Below are positions 31,065 through 40,050 of a stretch of 54,474 nucleotides of DNA, piece by piece. The first letter of the stretch is position 1. Each line of letters begins with the position of its first letter. A program made the position numbers and the translations under genes. The stretch covers positions 1 through 54,474 of the forward strand of contig DAHVSB010000006.1 in the NCBI GenBank assembly GCA_027324795.1, written 5' to 3'. The notes beneath the pieces are model-generated. The model had not been told where the DNA came from, did no database searches, and saw only the letters and a list, made by a program, of their open reading frames with translations. The stretch is from Alcanivoracaceae bacterium (GTDB taxonomy: Bacteria > Pseudomonadota > Gammaproteobacteria > Pseudomonadales > Alcanivoracaceae).

Positions 31065-31143
31065 GGCTCTGTTTCTCCTCCTCACATGATGAGACAAAGC
31101 ATAACGAATTCTGTATAAGAAGGTGGAAATATGGCAGGGAAAA

Positions 31144-31195: not shown

Positions 31196-31236
31196 GCAAT
31201 AAAAAAGCTCCCAAGACTAATGCCTTGAGAGCTTTT
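31196..31236 (-). terminator. Intrinsic terminator downstream of the Big_5 lipoprotein gene
   Basis: AAAAGCTC-C-CAAG(8-nt loop)CTTG-A-GAGCTTTT stem; on the minus strand followed by a T-rich tract. Confidence 0.75.
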
Positions 31237-31257: not shown

Positions 31258-33627
31258 TTAGCTACAGGTTCCCAAACCAAGCAAACCACCGAGTACGTTG
31301 CAAAGCCCCTCTACAATGCCTGTGCCTAAGTTTTCTAACGTTGTCAGTAACGCTGGCCCCTTCTCATCATCTCCTAGGAACAGTTCCTCAAGACCTGCTT
31401 GTAGATTTCCATCCATAAACAAGCCCGCCACTGTTTGTCCTAAATCTGGGTTTTCACCTAGGGTGGTACTTAACGCATCCACTAATGCTTGGGTACTCAA
31501 CCCCTGATTCCCTAACTCACTATCGTCGCCGAGCAGTAGGTCTAATACACCTTTTTTATCACCACCCTCAGGGGCAACTAAACATACATTCCCTAATGCT
31601 GAAGCGCACTCACCGCTGCTTTCATCAGCAGGTATTAATAAAGCCTCTAACAAGCCTCTTGCACCATCCTCTCCGGCTAGCAACTTTTCTAAGCCTGCAT
31701 TGCCTTCGCCATCGCCCAGCAATAACTCAGGCAAGATGGACTGCAAACCTTGATCACTAATCAACAGCTGCTCCAATCCCTTTTGAAGGTTGCCCTCTAA
31801 GAAAAGATTCTCTAGCAGCGTAGTTAATTCGCCATCATCGTTTTCAAGCAAGGTTTCTAGCGCATTGGCTAGTTTTTCTTTGCCGCCAATCTGACCTGCT
31901 AACGGTGCTAAAGGACCGTTTTCATCATCGAGTAATAAATCCACTAACCCTTCATTATTGCCTTCTCCGCCAAGGATACATAAGCCAGATACGTTACTCG
32001 CACAATTAACCACATCTATAGGGCCCTCACCATTAATGCGGAATGCAATGGTGGCATCGGAAGCCATGGGATCAGCATTTTCATCTGCAGGCTTAACATC
32101 GTTGCTAGCTACGGTGATTTCATGATGACGCCCTTCAGCCAGTGGAGACTCAGGGATAAAGCGAATGGTATCGTCTCCTTCGCGCTCACAACTACCGTTA
32201 ACTACTTCTCCATTACCATCGGCATCCAATGCGTTGAGTGTTAATGGACACTGATCAAACTCCACAGGTTGGTTAAATGTAATCACAGGGGCAACGTCGG
32301 CACTCACGTCTTGATCACCGTCCTCGGGGTCCGTATGCACAACCGCCAGGCTACCATCGCCTACATTGAACTCAAGTTCTATGGAGTTATCCAAAGCCAT
32401 GGAGTCATCAGCTTCCGCGGTAACCCTATCAGCGTCCACCACCAGTCGATAATCCCCTTCGTCGAGAGGCTCGTTAGGGTTAAACTGAATCTCGTTACCC
32501 TCCTCTGACAACTCACATTCGCCTGCCACTGGCGTTTCCACACCATCTGCATCAAGCTTCACTAGGTGAATGGCGCACTCGTCACCCATCACCACAGGCT
32601 GATTAAACTCAACTGCAGGAGTAATACTTGGTAGCACATTTTGAGCACCTGCTTCGGGTGTGGTGCTCACCACGGCTAAGTTAGCGAGGGTCTCAAACGT
32701 CACCACCTCTCTGTCATCCATGGGATCTGCCACTTCATCGGCAGCTGCGACACCTTCACTATCAATCACTAGTTCATAGGTGCTGCTAGGCTTAAGCGGC
32801 TCCGCGGGCGTTACAGTTACCTTAGTGCCATCCTCGGTTACCTCACAGTTAAGTTGTTCATATTGTGTTTCTACTAACGGGCTCTTGGGCTCGCGCTTTA
32901 AAGTTACATTAGCGCCCTCACCTCCACAAACAAGACTGTTCGTATCAATGGGTTGGTTAAACACCACCACGGGTTCCACGTTTAACGCCACGCCGTCGTC
33001 GCCATTCTGCGGCACTGTGTAGGCTATTTCTAAATAATTATCTTCGCCCGTGGTAAATTGATTTTCTTGCTCAGTAACAGGATCACCATTTTCATCCACC
33101 AGTGGCTCTCCTGCTTCATCTAAAAACACCAGGTATTTAGAACCGCTAGCACTGCCTTCACACTCAGCCGCCGCAATACCGCTTTCACCATTAGCCTCCA
33201 TGTAAAAGCGATACCCAGTGTTAGCTAACAAATGCGGCTCAGCTGGCTGAAAGCTCACATCTTGGCCATTCACTGTAGGCGTTAGCACCACCGCCTCTTG
33301 GGGCTCTGCCGTTGTTTCTAAACCAAAGGTGGCATTATGTAAGCTTTGGGCATCGGGCTCATGGGTAAAGCGCGCCAATATATAAGCACCCGTGGCCACA
33401 TCATCGCGCCCATCTTGCGGATACACTTGAGACCACTGCAACCCAAAAAACTGTTCTTCATCTTGACACCAGCTTGCGTCTGGGGATGGCCCTGCTTCCA
33501 CTGGCACCTCAATGCGCAAGCTATCTGAGCTTCCTCCATGACCACCGCCCAATTCTTTACACCCAGTAACGAGCAAGGCTGTGGTTGCCAATAGGGATAC
33601 CGCATAAAAAGTTGAGTTTCTCATCAT
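31258..33627 (-). CDS. Large Big_5/SbsA-type Ig-like repeat lipoprotein with duplicated leucine-rich C-terminal module
   Basis: Lipobox LLVTGC near the N-terminus; repeated 'P..G...V.....P...FNQP(V/I)' segments typical of Big_5; C-terminal (G)LxxLLLGD-type repeats. Confidence 0.85.
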   Translation of the reverse strand: MMRNSTFYAVSLLATTALLVTGCKELGGGHGGSSDSLRIEVPVEAGPSPDASWCQDEEQFFGLQWSQVYPQDGRDDVATGAYILARFTHEPDAQSLHNATFGLETTAEPQEAVVLTPTVNGQDVSFQPAEPHLLANTGYRFYMEANGESGIAAAECEGSASGSKYLVFLDEAGEPLVDENGDPVTEQENQFTTGEDNYLEIAYTVPQNGDDGVALNVEPVVVFNQPIDTNSLVCGGEGANVTLKREPKSPLVETQYEQLNCEVTEDGTKVTVTPAEPLKPSSTYELVIDSEGVAAADEVADPMDDREVVTFETLANLAVVSTTPEAGAQNVLPSITPAVEFNQPVVMGDECAIHLVKLDADGVETPVAGECELSEEGNEIQFNPNEPLDEGDYRLVVDADRVTAEADDSMALDNSIELEFNVGDGSLAVVHTDPEDGDQDVSADVAPVITFNQPVEFDQCPLTLNALDADGNGEVVNGSCEREGDDTIRFIPESPLAEGRHHEITVASNDVKPADENADPMASDATIAFRINGEGPIDVVNCASNVSGLCILGGEGNNEGLVDLLLDDENGPLAPLAGQIGGKEKLANALETLLENDDGELTTLLENLFLEGNLQKGLEQLLISDQGLQSILPELLLGDGEGNAGLEKLLAGEDGARGLLEALLIPADESSGECASALGNVCLVAPEGGDKKGVLDLLLGDDSELGNQGLSTQALVDALSTTLGENPDLGQTVAGLFMDGNLQAGLEELFLGDDEKGPALLTTLENLGTGIVEGLCNVLGGLLGLGTCS

Positions 33628-33660
33628 TATTCTCCTTGTTATGGCATCAACACCACAGAA

Positions 33661-34698
33661 TTATTTAAGCATCTCAATGACGTCTTTCTTCCCAGAAATC
33701 GTGGCTTCTACCCGCCTGTTTTGCGCACGGCCTTCCTCTGTGCTGTTATCAGCGATAGGTTGGGAAGCGCCCATGCCTGTCGTGCGTATACGCGAGGGAT
33801 CGATACCGAACTCCGTAACGAGCACTTGCATTACAGCTTCTGCTCGACTGCGAGAGAGGTCTTGGTTGTAGGAATCCAACCCAATATTGTCTGTGTGGCC
33901 TTCTAAAAGGAGGGTGCTATCGGGATACTCCACCATTTTTTCAGCGATTTCGCCGATATCGGGGTAATACTCTTCGAGCACAGTGGTTTTATTAAACTCA
34001 AATTCCATATGAAGCGTGATGTACATTTCTTGGGTTAGCATCACTGGGCAACCATCTGCATCAAGACGTGCGCCCGCAGGTACGTCTTTGCACTTGGGCT
34101 CTGGTAAAATAATTGGCTCTTCCACCTCTACTATCTGCTTAGGTTTTTTCTGCCCAAACAACAAATTGACAGCCATATAAGGCTGACGATCAGCAAAACG
34201 GTCTTTGTCTAGCGTGATAATGTGGCGATACCCCACATCTAGCATTAAATGCTTGCCGAGCATGCGCTGTAAGCCTATTTCACCAAACCCGGCGTCTGTT
34301 TGTGATTTTTTGAAATTATCAGGCTTCATTTGGTGGTATTGATAACCTAACCCTGCATAAGGGTAAAAATCCCAGAACAGGTCATAAACACTATGCAAGC
34401 GACCACCTAGCAAAGCTTGATGGTCTTTTATGTCTTCATCAAAATGGCGCATTTCGGTTTCGCCGTAACCGTATTGCGCTTGCAAGGAAAACTTGTGGTT
34501 AATACGCCACCCTAGATGTACGGCGGGCTGCCAAAAATTATGTACATCACCATCTGGGTTTTTTCCTTTTTGGATATCGTAATAAGAACCTTCAATCCCG
34601 AAATAGCCAAACGGTGCAACACTTGGGTTGGCGCTGAAAGCCATTATTGGCACCAGAGTGCCCATAGCGGCAATGAGTAACTGCATTTTTATCTTCAT
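33661..34698 (-). CDS. OmpA-family outer membrane protein (beta-barrel + OmpA_C peptidoglycan-binding domain)
   Basis: Signal peptide, beta-barrel-like N-terminus, C-terminal LLLEGHTDNIGLDSYNQDLSRSRAEAVMQVLV...GASQPIADNSTEEGRAQNRRVE. Confidence 0.93.
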   Translation of the reverse strand: MKIKMQLLIAAMGTLVPIMAFSANPSVAPFGYFGIEGSYYDIQKGKNPDGDVHNFWQPAVHLGWRINHKFSLQAQYGYGETEMRHFDEDIKDHQALLGGRLHSVYDLFWDFYPYAGLGYQYHQMKPDNFKKSQTDAGFGEIGLQRMLGKHLMLDVGYRHIITLDKDRFADRQPYMAVNLLFGQKKPKQIVEVEEPIILPEPKCKDVPAGARLDADGCPVMLTQEMYITLHMEFEFNKTTVLEEYYPDIGEIAEKMVEYPDSTLLLEGHTDNIGLDSYNQDLSRSRAEAVMQVLVTEFGIDPSRIRTTGMGASQPIADNSTEEGRAQNRRVEATISGKKDVIEMLK

Positions 34699-35061
34699 TG
34701 TTATAACTCCCTCATGCGAGCACTTTATGTTATTGTTTTATTAACTGTTTATATTATGAAGGGGAGCATTCTGGCTTGCCTATAAGGAATGGTGACTATT
34801 TTGATGAACGGCTTAACTCTTTTAACCTATAAAAAAGTAAGCACTTTTTACCAAAATCGATATTATCTCTCGTGGTAAATAAAGGCCGTCAATATAAATG
34901 AGGGGTCGTTAGCAAAAAAGCCAAATAACACTTGAACATGCTTTATGTCTTGGGCAGCCTAATAGCGTTTCTAATTCCTTATTACTTAATTTTCACCTTT
35001 GAATAATTAACACAAACAGTATGCAGGCCTAAAACCGAAGCATAAAATACGGGGCACTAGC

Positions 35062-38000
35062 ATGGCATTGGGAGCAAACTTCACTACTTTTTCTAACACG
35101 CAGGCAAACACTAAAGCACTTGCCAGACCACGTTTATTTGCGCAACTCAATCATTTCCAGGATAAAGCCGCTACCTGGATTGTGGCAGCTGGGGGCTATG
35201 GAAAAACCACGCTCGCTGTAAGTTACGCCGCATCCCAAAACAAGCCTCTCATTTGGCTCCTTATACCAGAAGCAGGCATGTCAGCAGGGGAGTTCTTCTT
35301 TAAATTACGCCAAGAAACTATTCGCTCTGTGGGAAAGGCGGCCTCTCAGCTACCCATATTCAGCCCAGAATACAGTGCATCCTCAGCCACCTTTGTGCGC
35401 CAATTTGCTGAGCTTTTTGCCAACTGCGTTAATTATGACGCCATACTTTTATTAGATGATTTACACCATGTGGCTGCAAAAGATCCCTTGCAACCTCTTA
35501 TAGCCCTTTTCGCCCAAGAACTAGACGGCAAGGTGCAAACTTTAATTGCTAGCCGCCATGAACCCGCTCCGCCATGGATAAAGCTCCGTAGCCGCGGCAA
35601 GCTCGCTTTTATCGATGAAAACCAGCTCGCTTTTAGCTTAGAAGAATCCACTGAACTCCTAACGCAACAAGGGCTTCCTCAGCAAAAACTAGCGCGGTTA
35701 TTGCCGCAAATTGATGCCATGGTGGGCGGTTGGGCCGTAGCGCTTATGCTGTTGCTAGAGCACTGGCAGCGCACCACTTCTCTACCGGACAACCTGCGCC
35801 AAGATTTAAGTTTAGATGATTGGTTCTTGCATGAAATTTATTTACCCCTGACAAGCAAAGATAAGCAAGTACTGCGCTATTGTTCCCAGCCAAGCCTGAT
35901 ACCAGAAGCCTGCGTTAATGCTGCCACTGACATAAAAGATGCCCACAAGCGTTTAGCTAAACTCGCCCAAGAACATGCTTTTATTTTTATTGCACCCAGC
36001 ACTGGGGGTGGCCGCCATTACCGTTTTCATGATTTATTTAAAGACTTTCTACGCCGCCAATTCCAACAAGAAGATCCTAAAGAGCAGCAGAGCGCCATTA
36101 TAGATGCGTGGGCCACCAGCTTATGGCAAGAAGGATTTTGGGAACTCGCCGCCCCCTTGCTGATAAAGCAAAAAAACTGGGAGGCTCTAGCTACGGGTAT
36201 TAATCACATCGCATTAGATCTTCTACACTCGGGGCGTGGTGACAAGCTTTATAGCCTCCTTGCCGCCATCCCTGAATCCATTCGCCGCACCAAGGCCCAT
36301 CTGCGCCTGTGGGAGGGTATTTGCTTAACCTTGATAAACACCTCTGCGGCGCGAGAGCTTATGAGCAGTGCCTGGGAAGAACTCAGCCAGACAGAGGATT
36401 ATGTTCACTTGGCTATTGCCTGGAGCGGCATCGTGGACAGTATTTGGCTTGAGTGGGCTCATGTTTCCTTGTATGAGCGATGGATCGCAGAGTTTGAGCG
36501 TTTTGAAACTGTTTTTCGCGAGCATCTCCCACTACCACTGTGGCATGCCGTGCTAAGAGGGATTGTTACCGCTATCTCTTATGGGCGCCCACTAGACCCT
36601 TCTCTACAAGATTGGGAGCGGGAAGCTATTGCCGCGCTATCCTGTAACAGCATGGCTGATTCTGAAAGGGTTATGCTAGCTAGCCAACTTATGTACCTTA
36701 ATACTTGGCAATTTGGTCGCCGCGCGGGTGCTAGCCGCATCATGGCCATTATGGAAAATCAACAGGAGGTTATTCAACGCTCTTCACCCTTGGCGCAGTG
36801 TTTATGGAAAACCTTCACAGCTCTCTGGGCTTTTTTATTCGAAGCTGATGCCGCCACTTGTTTTCAAGAGGCTGAAATCGGTCGGGATCTCATTCGAAAC
36901 TACGGTATTGGCACTTGGGATGATGCCGTTCCCGCCGTGCACTGCGCTCTCGCCTTTAATAACGCCGCCGCAATGAATGAATGGGTGGCTTGGTTTATGC
37001 GCACCGAACCCAAAACGCACCGTCCTTTTTACGATACTTTTCAGGCACATTTTCTATCGGCTCAAGCTTGGGTAAATAACGAGCGCTCTGCCGCCCTAGA
37101 CCACGCCAAGGAAGCTGTGGCAGTAGCAGACAAGCACGGCTCTATTGCAATTTCTGCGCTGTTTCGCGGCATCTATGCTGGCTTATTGGCCGAAAATGGC
37201 TTCTTCACAGAAGCACTGTTGATGGCAAGAGAGGCAAGACATCAGCAGCACGGTTTTGGCAGCGACTTTTTAAATATCGGTTTGTATTTGAACCTCGCCA
37301 AAATCCCCCTTTACCGTGGCCAACCACAGCGCGCCCTTCCTTATTTACGGTTAGCTTTTGCTGCGGGAGAGCGCCAACGTTTATTTTTCCCTATTTTTAT
37401 TAACAATAAAGATCTATCCCATATGTGTGGGTTGATTTTAAAAGAGGCCCCCAATAATGCCTACGCTCTATGGCATATTAAAGCGCGTAAGTTAGCACCA
37501 CCTTCTATGGCTGCATTACAACAACACTGGCCTTGGCATGCCACCATCAATGTTTTAGGTCGTTTTGTATTGCTTGCACAGGACCAATCAACACAACCCC
37601 TTCCTGGCGGCAAGCAGGGCACGAGCAAACTATTGAGCCACCTAATTGCAGCTGGCCCCAATGGTATTTCACAAGAAACGTTGGCGCGGACTATTTGGCC
37701 GGATAGCGAACCAGAAAACGCCCTCAATAGCTTATACGTAGGCTTGCACCGCTTACGCAAAAACCTATTTAAAGAGCCTAAAGCTATTTTAAACGAAGAA
37801 GGACGAACCCGATTTAACCCCCATCTAGTACAAGTGGACGCTTGGCAACTACAGACATTGAGCACACGAGCAAAAACACTCTCTAACAGCGCTTTAAGCC
37901 AAGCCCTAGAGCTGTACCAAGGGGAGGCGCACCTACCAGGCATGGAAGAAGTGGAGGCTGACATTTGGCGCTTAAAAATTTCTTCAGCCTATGAAAATAT

Positions 38001-38253
38001 AGCCACAGAATATGCTCAGCGCCTGGAACCAACAGATCCACGTGAGGCACTAAGCGTCTACCAGAAAGCCTTAGAACAAGTGCCCTTGAGCACCTCCCTG
38101 TGGTGTGGCGTACTGCGCTGTGAGTCCATGCTCGGTAACCAACAAGCCATACATCAGCATTACACATTGCTGAGCCAGCGTTTTGAGCAAGAGCTCGGTA
38201 TGGCACCCCCCGCAACACTCTCAGAGTTATACCAATCGCTAGTGAAGTCATAG
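35062..38253 (+). CDS. MalT-like STAND ATPase transcriptional regulator with C-terminal wHTH + BTAD (SARP-like) domain
   Basis: N-terminal P-loop AAGGYGKTTLAVSYA, Walker-B-like ILLLDDLHHV, helical-repeat middle; C-terminal 'SKLLSHLIAAGPNGISQETLARTIWPDSEPENALNSLYVGLHRLRKNL' followed by a BTAD-type TPR tail. Confidence 0.85.
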   Translation: MALGANFTTFSNTQANTKALARPRLFAQLNHFQDKAATWIVAAGGYGKTTLAVSYAASQNKPLIWLLIPEAGMSAGEFFFKLRQETIRSVGKAASQLPIFSPEYSASSATFVRQFAELFANCVNYDAILLLDDLHHVAAKDPLQPLIALFAQELDGKVQTLIASRHEPAPPWIKLRSRGKLAFIDENQLAFSLEESTELLTQQGLPQQKLARLLPQIDAMVGGWAVALMLLLEHWQRTTSLPDNLRQDLSLDDWFLHEIYLPLTSKDKQVLRYCSQPSLIPEACVNAATDIKDAHKRLAKLAQEHAFIFIAPSTGGGRHYRFHDLFKDFLRRQFQQEDPKEQQSAIIDAWATSLWQEGFWELAAPLLIKQKNWEALATGINHIALDLLHSGRGDKLYSLLAAIPESIRRTKAHLRLWEGICLTLINTSAARELMSSAWEELSQTEDYVHLAIAWSGIVDSIWLEWAHVSLYERWIAEFERFETVFREHLPLPLWHAVLRGIVTAISYGRPLDPSLQDWEREAIAALSCNSMADSERVMLASQLMYLNTWQFGRRAGASRIMAIMENQQEVIQRSSPLAQCLWKTFTALWAFLFEADAATCFQEAEIGRDLIRNYGIGTWDDAVPAVHCALAFNNAAAMNEWVAWFMRTEPKTHRPFYDTFQAHFLSAQAWVNNERSAALDHAKEAVAVADKHGSIAISALFRGIYAGLLAENGFFTEALLMAREARHQQHGFGSDFLNIGLYLNLAKIPLYRGQPQRALPYLRLAFAAGERQRLFFPIFINNKDLSHMCGLILKEAPNNAYALWHIKARKLAPPSMAALQQHWPWHATINVLGRFVLLAQDQSTQPLPGGKQGTSKLLSHLIAAGPNGISQETLARTIWPDSEPENALNSLYVGLHRLRKNLFKEPKAILNEEGRTRFNPHLVQVDAWQLQTLSTRAKTLSNSALSQALELYQGEAHLPGMEEVEADIWRLKISSAYENIATEYAQRLEPTDPREALSVYQKALEQVPLSTSLWCGVLRCESMLGNQQAIHQHYTLLSQRFEQELGMAPPATLSELYQSLVKS

Positions 38254-38360
38254 CACTTGCAAGTAACAGCATGCTCGGCAAGCCATACTGCCTCGCACTT
38301 TAGTTGTAAACTACCTGAGCCAAATCAAGGAAACAAAACACAATAACAGTAGCATCGATT

Positions 38361-38389
38361 TTCGGACAAACATTAGATCTAGATATAAT
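38361..38389 (+). promoter_or_regulatory. Candidate sigma-70 type promoter for the receiver-like/GTPase pair
   Basis: Perfect -10 TATAAT (38384-38389) with a poor -35 (TTCGGA) at 17-bp spacing; AT-rich intergenic region. Confidence 0.4.
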
Positions 38390-38410
38390 AACAATATAAA
38401 GAGAAAACCG

Positions 38411-39493
38411 ATGCGCAATCACCATACCGCAGCAAAAGTTATGTTGGTGGGATTTCCTCATCGCCAGCAGACACTGTTTGCTCAATTATTTAAGCAACCA
38501 AATTTCCAAGCATTCACGCTAGTGGACCAAGCCCCCATTGATGTGGCCATTGTGGACCTTGACGCGCCCCAAGCGGAGGAGAACTGGAAAGTGTTTCGTC
38601 GAAACTTTCCGCAAACGCCTGCTATCACTGTATCGTTAACACCTAAAGAACAAAAAGGTCCTTACTGGTTAGCAAAACCCGTTAATCTTCATGCACTGAA
38701 GTCTCTCCTAGCCTCATTAAACCCACATGGCACAACTCAGCAGCCCTCATCGAGCACGCTAATCGATACAAAGCGCTCGCATATTTCTGCGATGCTAAAA
38801 AATGGCGCAGAACCCACCCAACAAAAATACAGCTCAACCAATGAGCTATCATTTCATCTGACCACCGCTAATAGTAGTTATCAAGTAAATGATTATTTAG
38901 AAGGAAAACTAAAAAACGCAATTTTAAAAACAAAGAAAAGGCATACAGCCCAAAAACTTATCGGCCACTTACAAGGCGCCCCATTGCCTGGCGATTTATA
39001 TATTCTGCCTGATTGCCACAGCATTGTTACCGATATTAAGCCACGATTTTTACGCGCGCTAAGCTTAATTAATCTTAGCCAAGAAAAAGCAGTTTTTGAA
39101 TTTGCCCCCTTTAACCATCCTGTTCCCCCATTAGAAACAAAAGTTCATTGGCAAACTTTTTTGTGGCAATTAAGCCTCTGGACTTCTCGCGGCCGCTTGC
39201 AACAACAAATTACTCCTAAGCAAGCTTTTACTTTGACTCAATGGCCAAATTTTAACTTACTCAATGAGTTTCCCCATGCCCTCAAATTAGCCGCCTGTTT
39301 GGCGCGCAATAGCTGTATGCCGAAGAATATTGCCGAAAAACAAAATGTCCCCCTTCCCTACGTGTACTCTTTTTTAAGCGCAGCAAATTCTTTAGGCCTA
39401 CTGAAACAACAAGCAGAAACAATCTCTCAGCCGCCTCAAAATGCGGTTCGTGAGCTATTACAACGCATGCTTAAACGATTAACAGCGGAGTAA
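38411..39493 (+). CDS. Degenerate response-regulator-receiver-like protein with novel C-terminal region (possible winged helix)
   Basis: N-terminal ~100 aa look like a REC fold: VAIVDLDAP (phosphoacceptor-like Asp), ITVSLTP, LAKPVNLHALKSLL (Lys-Pro motif), but the acidic pair after beta-1 is absent. C-terminal 'AACLARNSCMPKNIAEKQNVPLPYVYSFLSAANSLGLL' looks HTH-like. Confidence 0.6.
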   Translation: MRNHHTAAKVMLVGFPHRQQTLFAQLFKQPNFQAFTLVDQAPIDVAIVDLDAPQAEENWKVFRRNFPQTPAITVSLTPKEQKGPYWLAKPVNLHALKSLLASLNPHGTTQQPSSSTLIDTKRSHISAMLKNGAEPTQQKYSSTNELSFHLTTANSSYQVNDYLEGKLKNAILKTKKRHTAQKLIGHLQGAPLPGDLYILPDCHSIVTDIKPRFLRALSLINLSQEKAVFEFAPFNHPVPPLETKVHWQTFLWQLSLWTSRGRLQQQITPKQAFTLTQWPNFNLLNEFPHALKLAACLARNSCMPKNIAEKQNVPLPYVYSFLSAANSLGLLKQQAETISQPPQNAVRELLQRMLKRLTAE

Positions 39494-39495
39494 CC

Positions 39496-40050
39496 ATGAA
39501 AGAACAACGACGACTTGTTTTTGCGGGGCCTGTGGGCTCAGGCAAAACTACAGCAATTAGAGCACTGTCCGACGAGCCAATCATTAGCACTGAAGCGCTC
39601 ATCAGTGGCAACAACAAAGATGCTGACAAGCGCCACACCACTGTGGCGCTAGATTTTGGCGTTATTCATCTCGATGATAAAACCAACTTGCAGCTTTACG
39701 GCACACCTGGGCATCAACATTTTGATTTTATGTGGGATATTGCCGCGAGGAACAGCATAGGATTGCTTTTATTGTTAGATGGACGCCGATCTAATCTTTT
39801 AGAGGATTTAACTGTTTTTACCCAAGCCTTTAGGCAACTACTCCAAGCGGGAGGCTTCGCGGTTGGCATCACTCATGCAGATAAAGTACAGAATCTTGAG
39901 TTGCTGCGCGGACAGATCAACCATGAAATCGAACGTTTACAGCTGGTGGCACCTGTGTTGAGCATCGACCCTCGCCAACGCAAAGAGGTAGTAAAGCTCA
40001 TCAAAGCCCTGCTTTACACCCTCGATCCAAGCCTCATAAAGGTGAGTTAG
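39496..40050 (+). CDS. Small Ras-like GTPase (COG2229 / MglA-SRPRB-like)
   Basis: G1 VFAGPVGSGKTTAIRAL; G3-like LQLYGTPGHQHFDFMWDIAA; G4-like ITHADK; 184 aa; 2 nt after the upstream gene. Confidence 0.85.
   Translation: MKEQRRLVFAGPVGSGKTTAIRALSDEPIISTEALISGNNKDADKRHTTVALDFGVIHLDDKTNLQLYGTPGHQHFDFMWDIAARNSIGLLLLLDGRRSNLLEDLTVFTQAFRQLLQAGGFAVGITHADKVQNLELLRGQINHEIERLQLVAPVLSIDPRQRKEVVKLIKALLYTLDPSLIKVS

Follow-up and report, generated by a model that had tools for sequence, protein, structure and literature searches.

An orphan MglA-type GTPase and a conserved OmpA-lipoprotein gene pair at a probably composite locus of an Alcanivoracaceae bacterium

The GTPases of the Streptomyces conservons (CvnA-D) belong to Group 2 of the MglA proteins, and an MglB-type protein is their usual partner. 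Group 3 MglA systems consist of MglA, one or two MglB proteins, and a protein whose receiver-like and winged-helix-like ends are joined by a variable linker (Wuichet and Sogaard-Andersen 2014, PMC4316618). Their GTPases, found in beta- and gammaproteobacteria, have no Asp in G3 and no Lys in G4 (PMC4316618). A group 3 mgl locus of Snodgrassella has been experimentally tied to motility and gut colonisation (PMC11112851). Among envelope loci, the Acinetobacter fil operon is described as having six genes, and FilF, whose gene lies among others for the outer membrane, as a 641-aa outer-membrane protein with a signal peptide (PMC4751259).

We analysed a window of 54,474 nucleotides, which is contig C121 of a draft genome (2.05 Mb, 154 contigs, 87% complete). 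A first-pass annotation had described a block of five genes flanked by hemN and zapE. The ORF listing confirmed the five ORFs with their coordinates, spacings, and flanks, and Pfam and NCBIfam agreed with the domain calls, the receiver-like fold being recovered from a structural model and a structure search. The start of hemN is more likely to lie near 31070, and the last gene of the block, encoding the GTPase, is convergent with zapE and overlaps it by four bases. The composition and codon use of the block are native to the genome, and a horizontal island was rejected on this basis.

The OmpA-lipoprotein pair and the STAND regulator

The minus-strand part of the block comprises an OmpA gene (33661-34698, 345 aa) and, after a gap of 33 bp, a lipoprotein gene (31258-33627, 789 aa). 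The OmpA protein combines an OMP_b-brl barrel with an OmpA peptidoglycan-binding domain. The lipoprotein has the lipobox LVTGC, followed by four Big_5 stretches (Pfam, E 7e-37) and C-terminal leucine-rich repeats, with the final sequence LCNVLGGLLGLGTC. Between the lipoprotein gene and hemN lies an inverted repeat, AAAAGCTCCCAAG/CTTGAGAGCTTTT (31203-31236), whose hairpin and T-rich end make it a likely terminator of the lipoprotein transcript.

OmpA homologues with 30-49% identity adjoin a homologous lipoprotein gene in nine other genomes from three families: five of genus g4 in the source's own family f1 (G003, G015, G010, G019, G022), one of f20 (G210), and three of f40 (G239, G219, G175). 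In the window and in all nine, the lipoprotein gene is directly downstream of the OmpA-barrel gene on the same strand. The lipobox, a Big_5 part, and an LC...C ending at the C-terminus are common to the family f1 lipoproteins. Conservation of gene order thus establishes the pair, with OmpA first and the lipoprotein second, as a real unit, in agreement with its grouping in the first-pass annotation. It would form a two-gene envelope operon for a peptidoglycan-anchored outer-membrane barrel and a long lipoprotein, and the two proteins presumably work together. The fil operon, compared by description only, resembles this locus in that outer-membrane genes are grouped.

In genus g4 (L068-L072), a second OmpA-barrel gene (32-35% identity to the window OmpA) is located just upstream of the pair, and response-regulator and kinase-like genes occur some kilobases away. 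A role of OmpA in TraB-like outer-membrane exchange was rejected; the match covered only the C-terminal OmpA part and fell far under the family cut-off.

The pair is separated from a plus-strand STAND gene (35062-38253, 1063 aa) by an AT-rich divergent region of 363 bp (34699-35061, GC 0.35). The encoded protein shares the NB-ARC-type ATPase N-terminus of MalT-type STAND regulators: residues 10-416 match the NCBIfam MalT model (E 6e-35, below the equivalog cut-off), with GGYGKTT as Walker A, and a helical middle follows. MalT itself ends in a LuxR-type helix-turn-helix, whereas the window protein, which has no LuxR-type DNA-binding domain, ends in a winged helix (Trans_reg_C, weak and under the Pfam cut-off) and BTAD (over the cut-off). 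A literature search for STAND/BTAD returned no relevant paper.

Full-length orthologues with 41-49% identity were found in G370, G421, G224, and G623, and G134 matches in the C-terminal part only (~32%). Lipoprotein genes unrelated to that of the window adjoin four of these five. In G370 and G421, which belong to one genus, the neighbour is a lipoprotein gene in divergent orientation with a beta-amylase gene behind it (GH14 by Pfam in G370); in G224 and G134, a lipoprotein from a different family is encoded downstream. This adjacency was recognised post hoc; it comes from about three independent lineages and does not hold in G623, where no envelope gene neighbours the orthologue. Because the closest orthologues adjoin lipoprotein genes, local control of an envelope gene by the STAND protein is mildly supported. 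The protein would bind ATP and an inducer, oligomerise, and activate transcription through its winged-helix/BTAD end. Its target, judged from the family architecture and the orthologue neighbours, would most likely be the divergent ompA-lipoprotein operon; we regard control of ompA as a tentative assignment, slightly short of an even chance. Within the divergent region, an imperfect 33-bp dyad at 34847-34879 is a possible operator; dyads of the same geometry arose in 11 of 300 shuffles. An operator shared by the orthologues was rejected, as no 8-mer or motif was found to be common to all five upstream regions.

At L131:12432-16093 and L139:3490-7204, the STAND orthologues are divergent to lipoprotein and beta-amylase genes (GH14 with CBM20 in L131), and a starch-related inducer is suggested for this lineage.

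The STAND protein might instead regulate the plus-strand genes that follow it, or distant genes. The lack of an envelope neighbour in the close orthologue of G623 and the lack of a common operator point in that direction, as do the distant relatives (~25% identity), which adjoin genes of many kinds with no lipoprotein pattern. Against this, lipoprotein genes accompany the orthologues in three lineages, and the gene is divergently placed, as is typical of local regulators. On balance, we consider another target unlikely, and the adjacent OmpA-lipoprotein operon remains our preferred candidate.

The receiver-like protein and the orphan GTPase

A 157-bp AT-rich gap (38254-38410) separates the STAND gene from a plus-strand gene for a receiver-like protein (38411-39493, 360 aa), which is followed after 2 nt by the GTPase gene (39496-40050, plus strand, 184 aa). 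Within the gap, a TATAAT box near 38384 suggests that the receiver/GTPase pair has its own promoter. The box was read from the sequence and is absent from the promoter scan because its -35 hexamer is weak.

The 360-aa protein matched no Pfam or NCBIfam family. In the AlphaFold model (14 rows), its first 105 residues are receiver-like and the linker is disordered; Foldseek matched receiver domains to the N-terminal part (best E about 1e-3), in which Asp and Lys are kept at receiver-typical positions. By profile, the protein matched a paralogue in the same genome, encoded at C110 (L040:9975-11105, 32%), and its counterparts in relatives. The gene is somewhat AT-rich, as is its C110 counterpart. 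We take the protein to be a pseudo-receiver with a putative winged-helix-like C-terminus, as described for Group 3 MglA systems (PMC4316618).

The GTPase matched small-GTPase families (Pfam/NCBIfam), and its model (pLDDT 90.6) matched Rab, Rho, and MglA structures; G1, G2, and the fold are retained, and model confidence is high. A PDB sequence search gave weak matches only, and a scan of the contig database gave one distant archaeal match, which was uninformative. Like Group 3 MglA proteins, it has neither the G3 Asp nor the G4 Lys (THAD in place of [NT]KxD), and its gene likewise follows one for a receiver-like/winged-helix-like protein. It differs from them in G5 (DPR versus DAR) and in G3, which reads GTPGHQHF in place of GTPGQxRF. 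The Gln of this motif is present in 51 of 52 GTPases compared, the window protein being the sole exception. The GTPGH reading comes from one draft genome, in which three nearby residues also differ, more than a single sequencing error gives. The conservon GTPases, a related class, also have a GTPGQ-type G3, and the five ORFs include no CvnA histidine kinase, CvnB Roadblock, or established CvnC; the window is, moreover, gammaproteobacterial. The placement of the GTPase in the MglA/conservon world by the first-pass annotation can thus be narrowed to the Group 3 MglA type.

A further difference from Group 3 is the lack of an MglB/Roadblock gene in the block. Neither Pfam, run over the genome, nor four home-made models detected one in the window or elsewhere on the contig (L041), and a hidden Roadblock gene in the window was rejected; a partner too divergent for these models could exist. 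The absence had been noticed in the first-pass annotation and turns out to be unusual. A Roadblock-type gene lies near the GTPase in 32 of 34 related neighbourhoods, a count in which some loci had served to build the models, making their matches circular, and many others had not. The two exceptions are G028, with a truncated GTPase gene, and G218, with a much longer one. A literature search for Roadblock/DUF4388 in Acinetobacter found nothing. Because the contig has no Roadblock gene, we regard the window pair as a relative of Group 3 MglA and not as a full member system. Like the Snodgrassella locus, it is proteobacterial with an orphan component; there the orphan is mglB (PMC11112851), and here it is an mglA-type GTPase with its receiver-like partner.

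The same genome encodes a second GTPase, 42% identical, at C110, which carries the only Roadblock gene of the genome over the Pfam cut-off. The C110 operon (L040:8793-13285) has the order Roadblock, PAS, PhnD-like, 162 aa, receiver-like (32%), GTPase, and winged helix/weak Roadblock, and operons of this type, differing in gene order, are found in G062, G207, G100, G378, G090, G330, and G236. In the tree, the branch of the window GTPase measures 1.75 versus 0.64 for the C110 copy. Long branches were flagged, and the exact placement of the window GTPase is therefore unsure; direct descent from the C110 copy is not claimed.

Several features of the related loci deserve mention. The PhnD-like protein of C110 (Phosphonate-bd, E 9e-38) has no obvious signal peptide, is odd in a cytoplasmic GTPase operon, and recurs in seven other genomes. 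A Roadblock gene at L042:10041-10403 lies under shadow frames in the ORF listing and was seen only by profile search. In three Group 3-like loci (L043:1616-2983, L106:8346-9686, L115:8422-9768), which represent a variant operon type, the gene after the GTPase encodes an ABC-type ATPase; in L043, this ATPase carries a phosphatase-like motif, HCKAGLGRTG, close to its end.

Comparison with these relatives identifies the window genes as an apparently diverged Group 3 MglA-type pair that lacks both the Roadblock gene and the G3 Gln. The pair is probably a duplicated, fast-evolving copy that acts apart from the STAND protein and the envelope operon. Its GTPase would probably hydrolyse GTP slowly or not at all, serving as a nearly locked switch or as a scaffold for its pseudo-receiver partner, or might borrow the C110 Roadblock proteins; the odds that it is slow or locked are about even.

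A duplicate in decay, with no function left, would also account for the long branch and for the loss of the conserved Gln and the Roadblock gene. Such a case appears to exist in G028 (L047:8040-8807), where the GTPase is truncated to 135 aa and preceded by a mere fragment of the receiver protein, with no Roadblock gene; we read it as a Group 3-type pair in decay. In the window, by contrast, both genes are full-length open reading frames, G1, G2, and the fold are preserved in a high-confidence model, and the receiver protein retains its Asp and Lys. Decay is thus quite improbable here, and we favour the diverged copy.

One module or three units

The first-pass annotation had proposed the five genes as one module, for which co-conservation across genomes was expected. 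We examined 65 related neighbourhoods (34 GTPase, 22 STAND, and 9 OmpA-lipoprotein loci), obtained by scanning 392 genomes of the order for all units and 369 of the class for STAND only, with one genome of the source genus, 87% complete. The three units never occur together in them, and no cross-unit partner was found except one generic OmpA-domain match; the nine OmpA-lipoprotein loci gave no STAND, receiver, or GTPase match. Because the units do not co-occur, the five-gene system was rejected. The block probably represents three separately evolving units that are adjacent only in this genome.

Most of the relatives compared retain the two genes upstream of zapE, but another gene, not the block, occupies its far side; at some of these loci, the choice of longer shadow frames prevented a clean reading. 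From our reading of the sequences, this appears to be an acyl-CoA-dehydrogenase-like or ribosomal-protein gene. As these relatives have zapE without the block, the block is lineage-specific.

The annotation had further proposed that the envelope genes are controlled by, or signal to, an ATPase/GTPase switch. Part of this holds: the OmpA-lipoprotein pair is conserved, and the STAND protein, whose orthologues lie beside lipoprotein genes, may control the adjacent envelope gene. The wiring of the GTPase and receiver to either of them found no support, and there is no evidence linking the third unit to the first two. The three plus-strand genes run in the same direction, and cotranscription could occur.

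A real, recently assembled surface-signalling module, with the STAND protein as ligand sensor, the pseudo-receiver/GTPase pair as its modulator or as signal carrier, and the OmpA-lipoprotein surface complex as output, would be consistent with the compact arrangement, the unidirectional plus-strand set, and the native composition, and also with a GTPase gene that is intact and conserved in its nucleotide-binding motifs despite fast change. We consider it very unlikely, given that the five genes are not co-conserved, that a promoter-like site of its own precedes the receiver gene, and that every unit is found complete elsewhere without the other two. We also consider very unlikely the specific version in which this lineage combined a STAND-BTAD sensor with a pseudo-receiver and its Ras-like GTPase, which lacks a GAP and has a His-type G3, to form a cytoplasmic switch over the OmpA-lipoprotein surface complex.

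The reading as three units removes a five-gene candidate system and leaves two testable leads. The OmpA and Big_5 lipoprotein pair is kept in three families, and we found no described function for it. The orphan Group 3 MglA-type GTPase has neither a GAP gene nor the Gln, although its genome has a complete system at C110. It thus allows a natural test of how these little-studied switches are turned off and of whether paralogues have one GAP in common.
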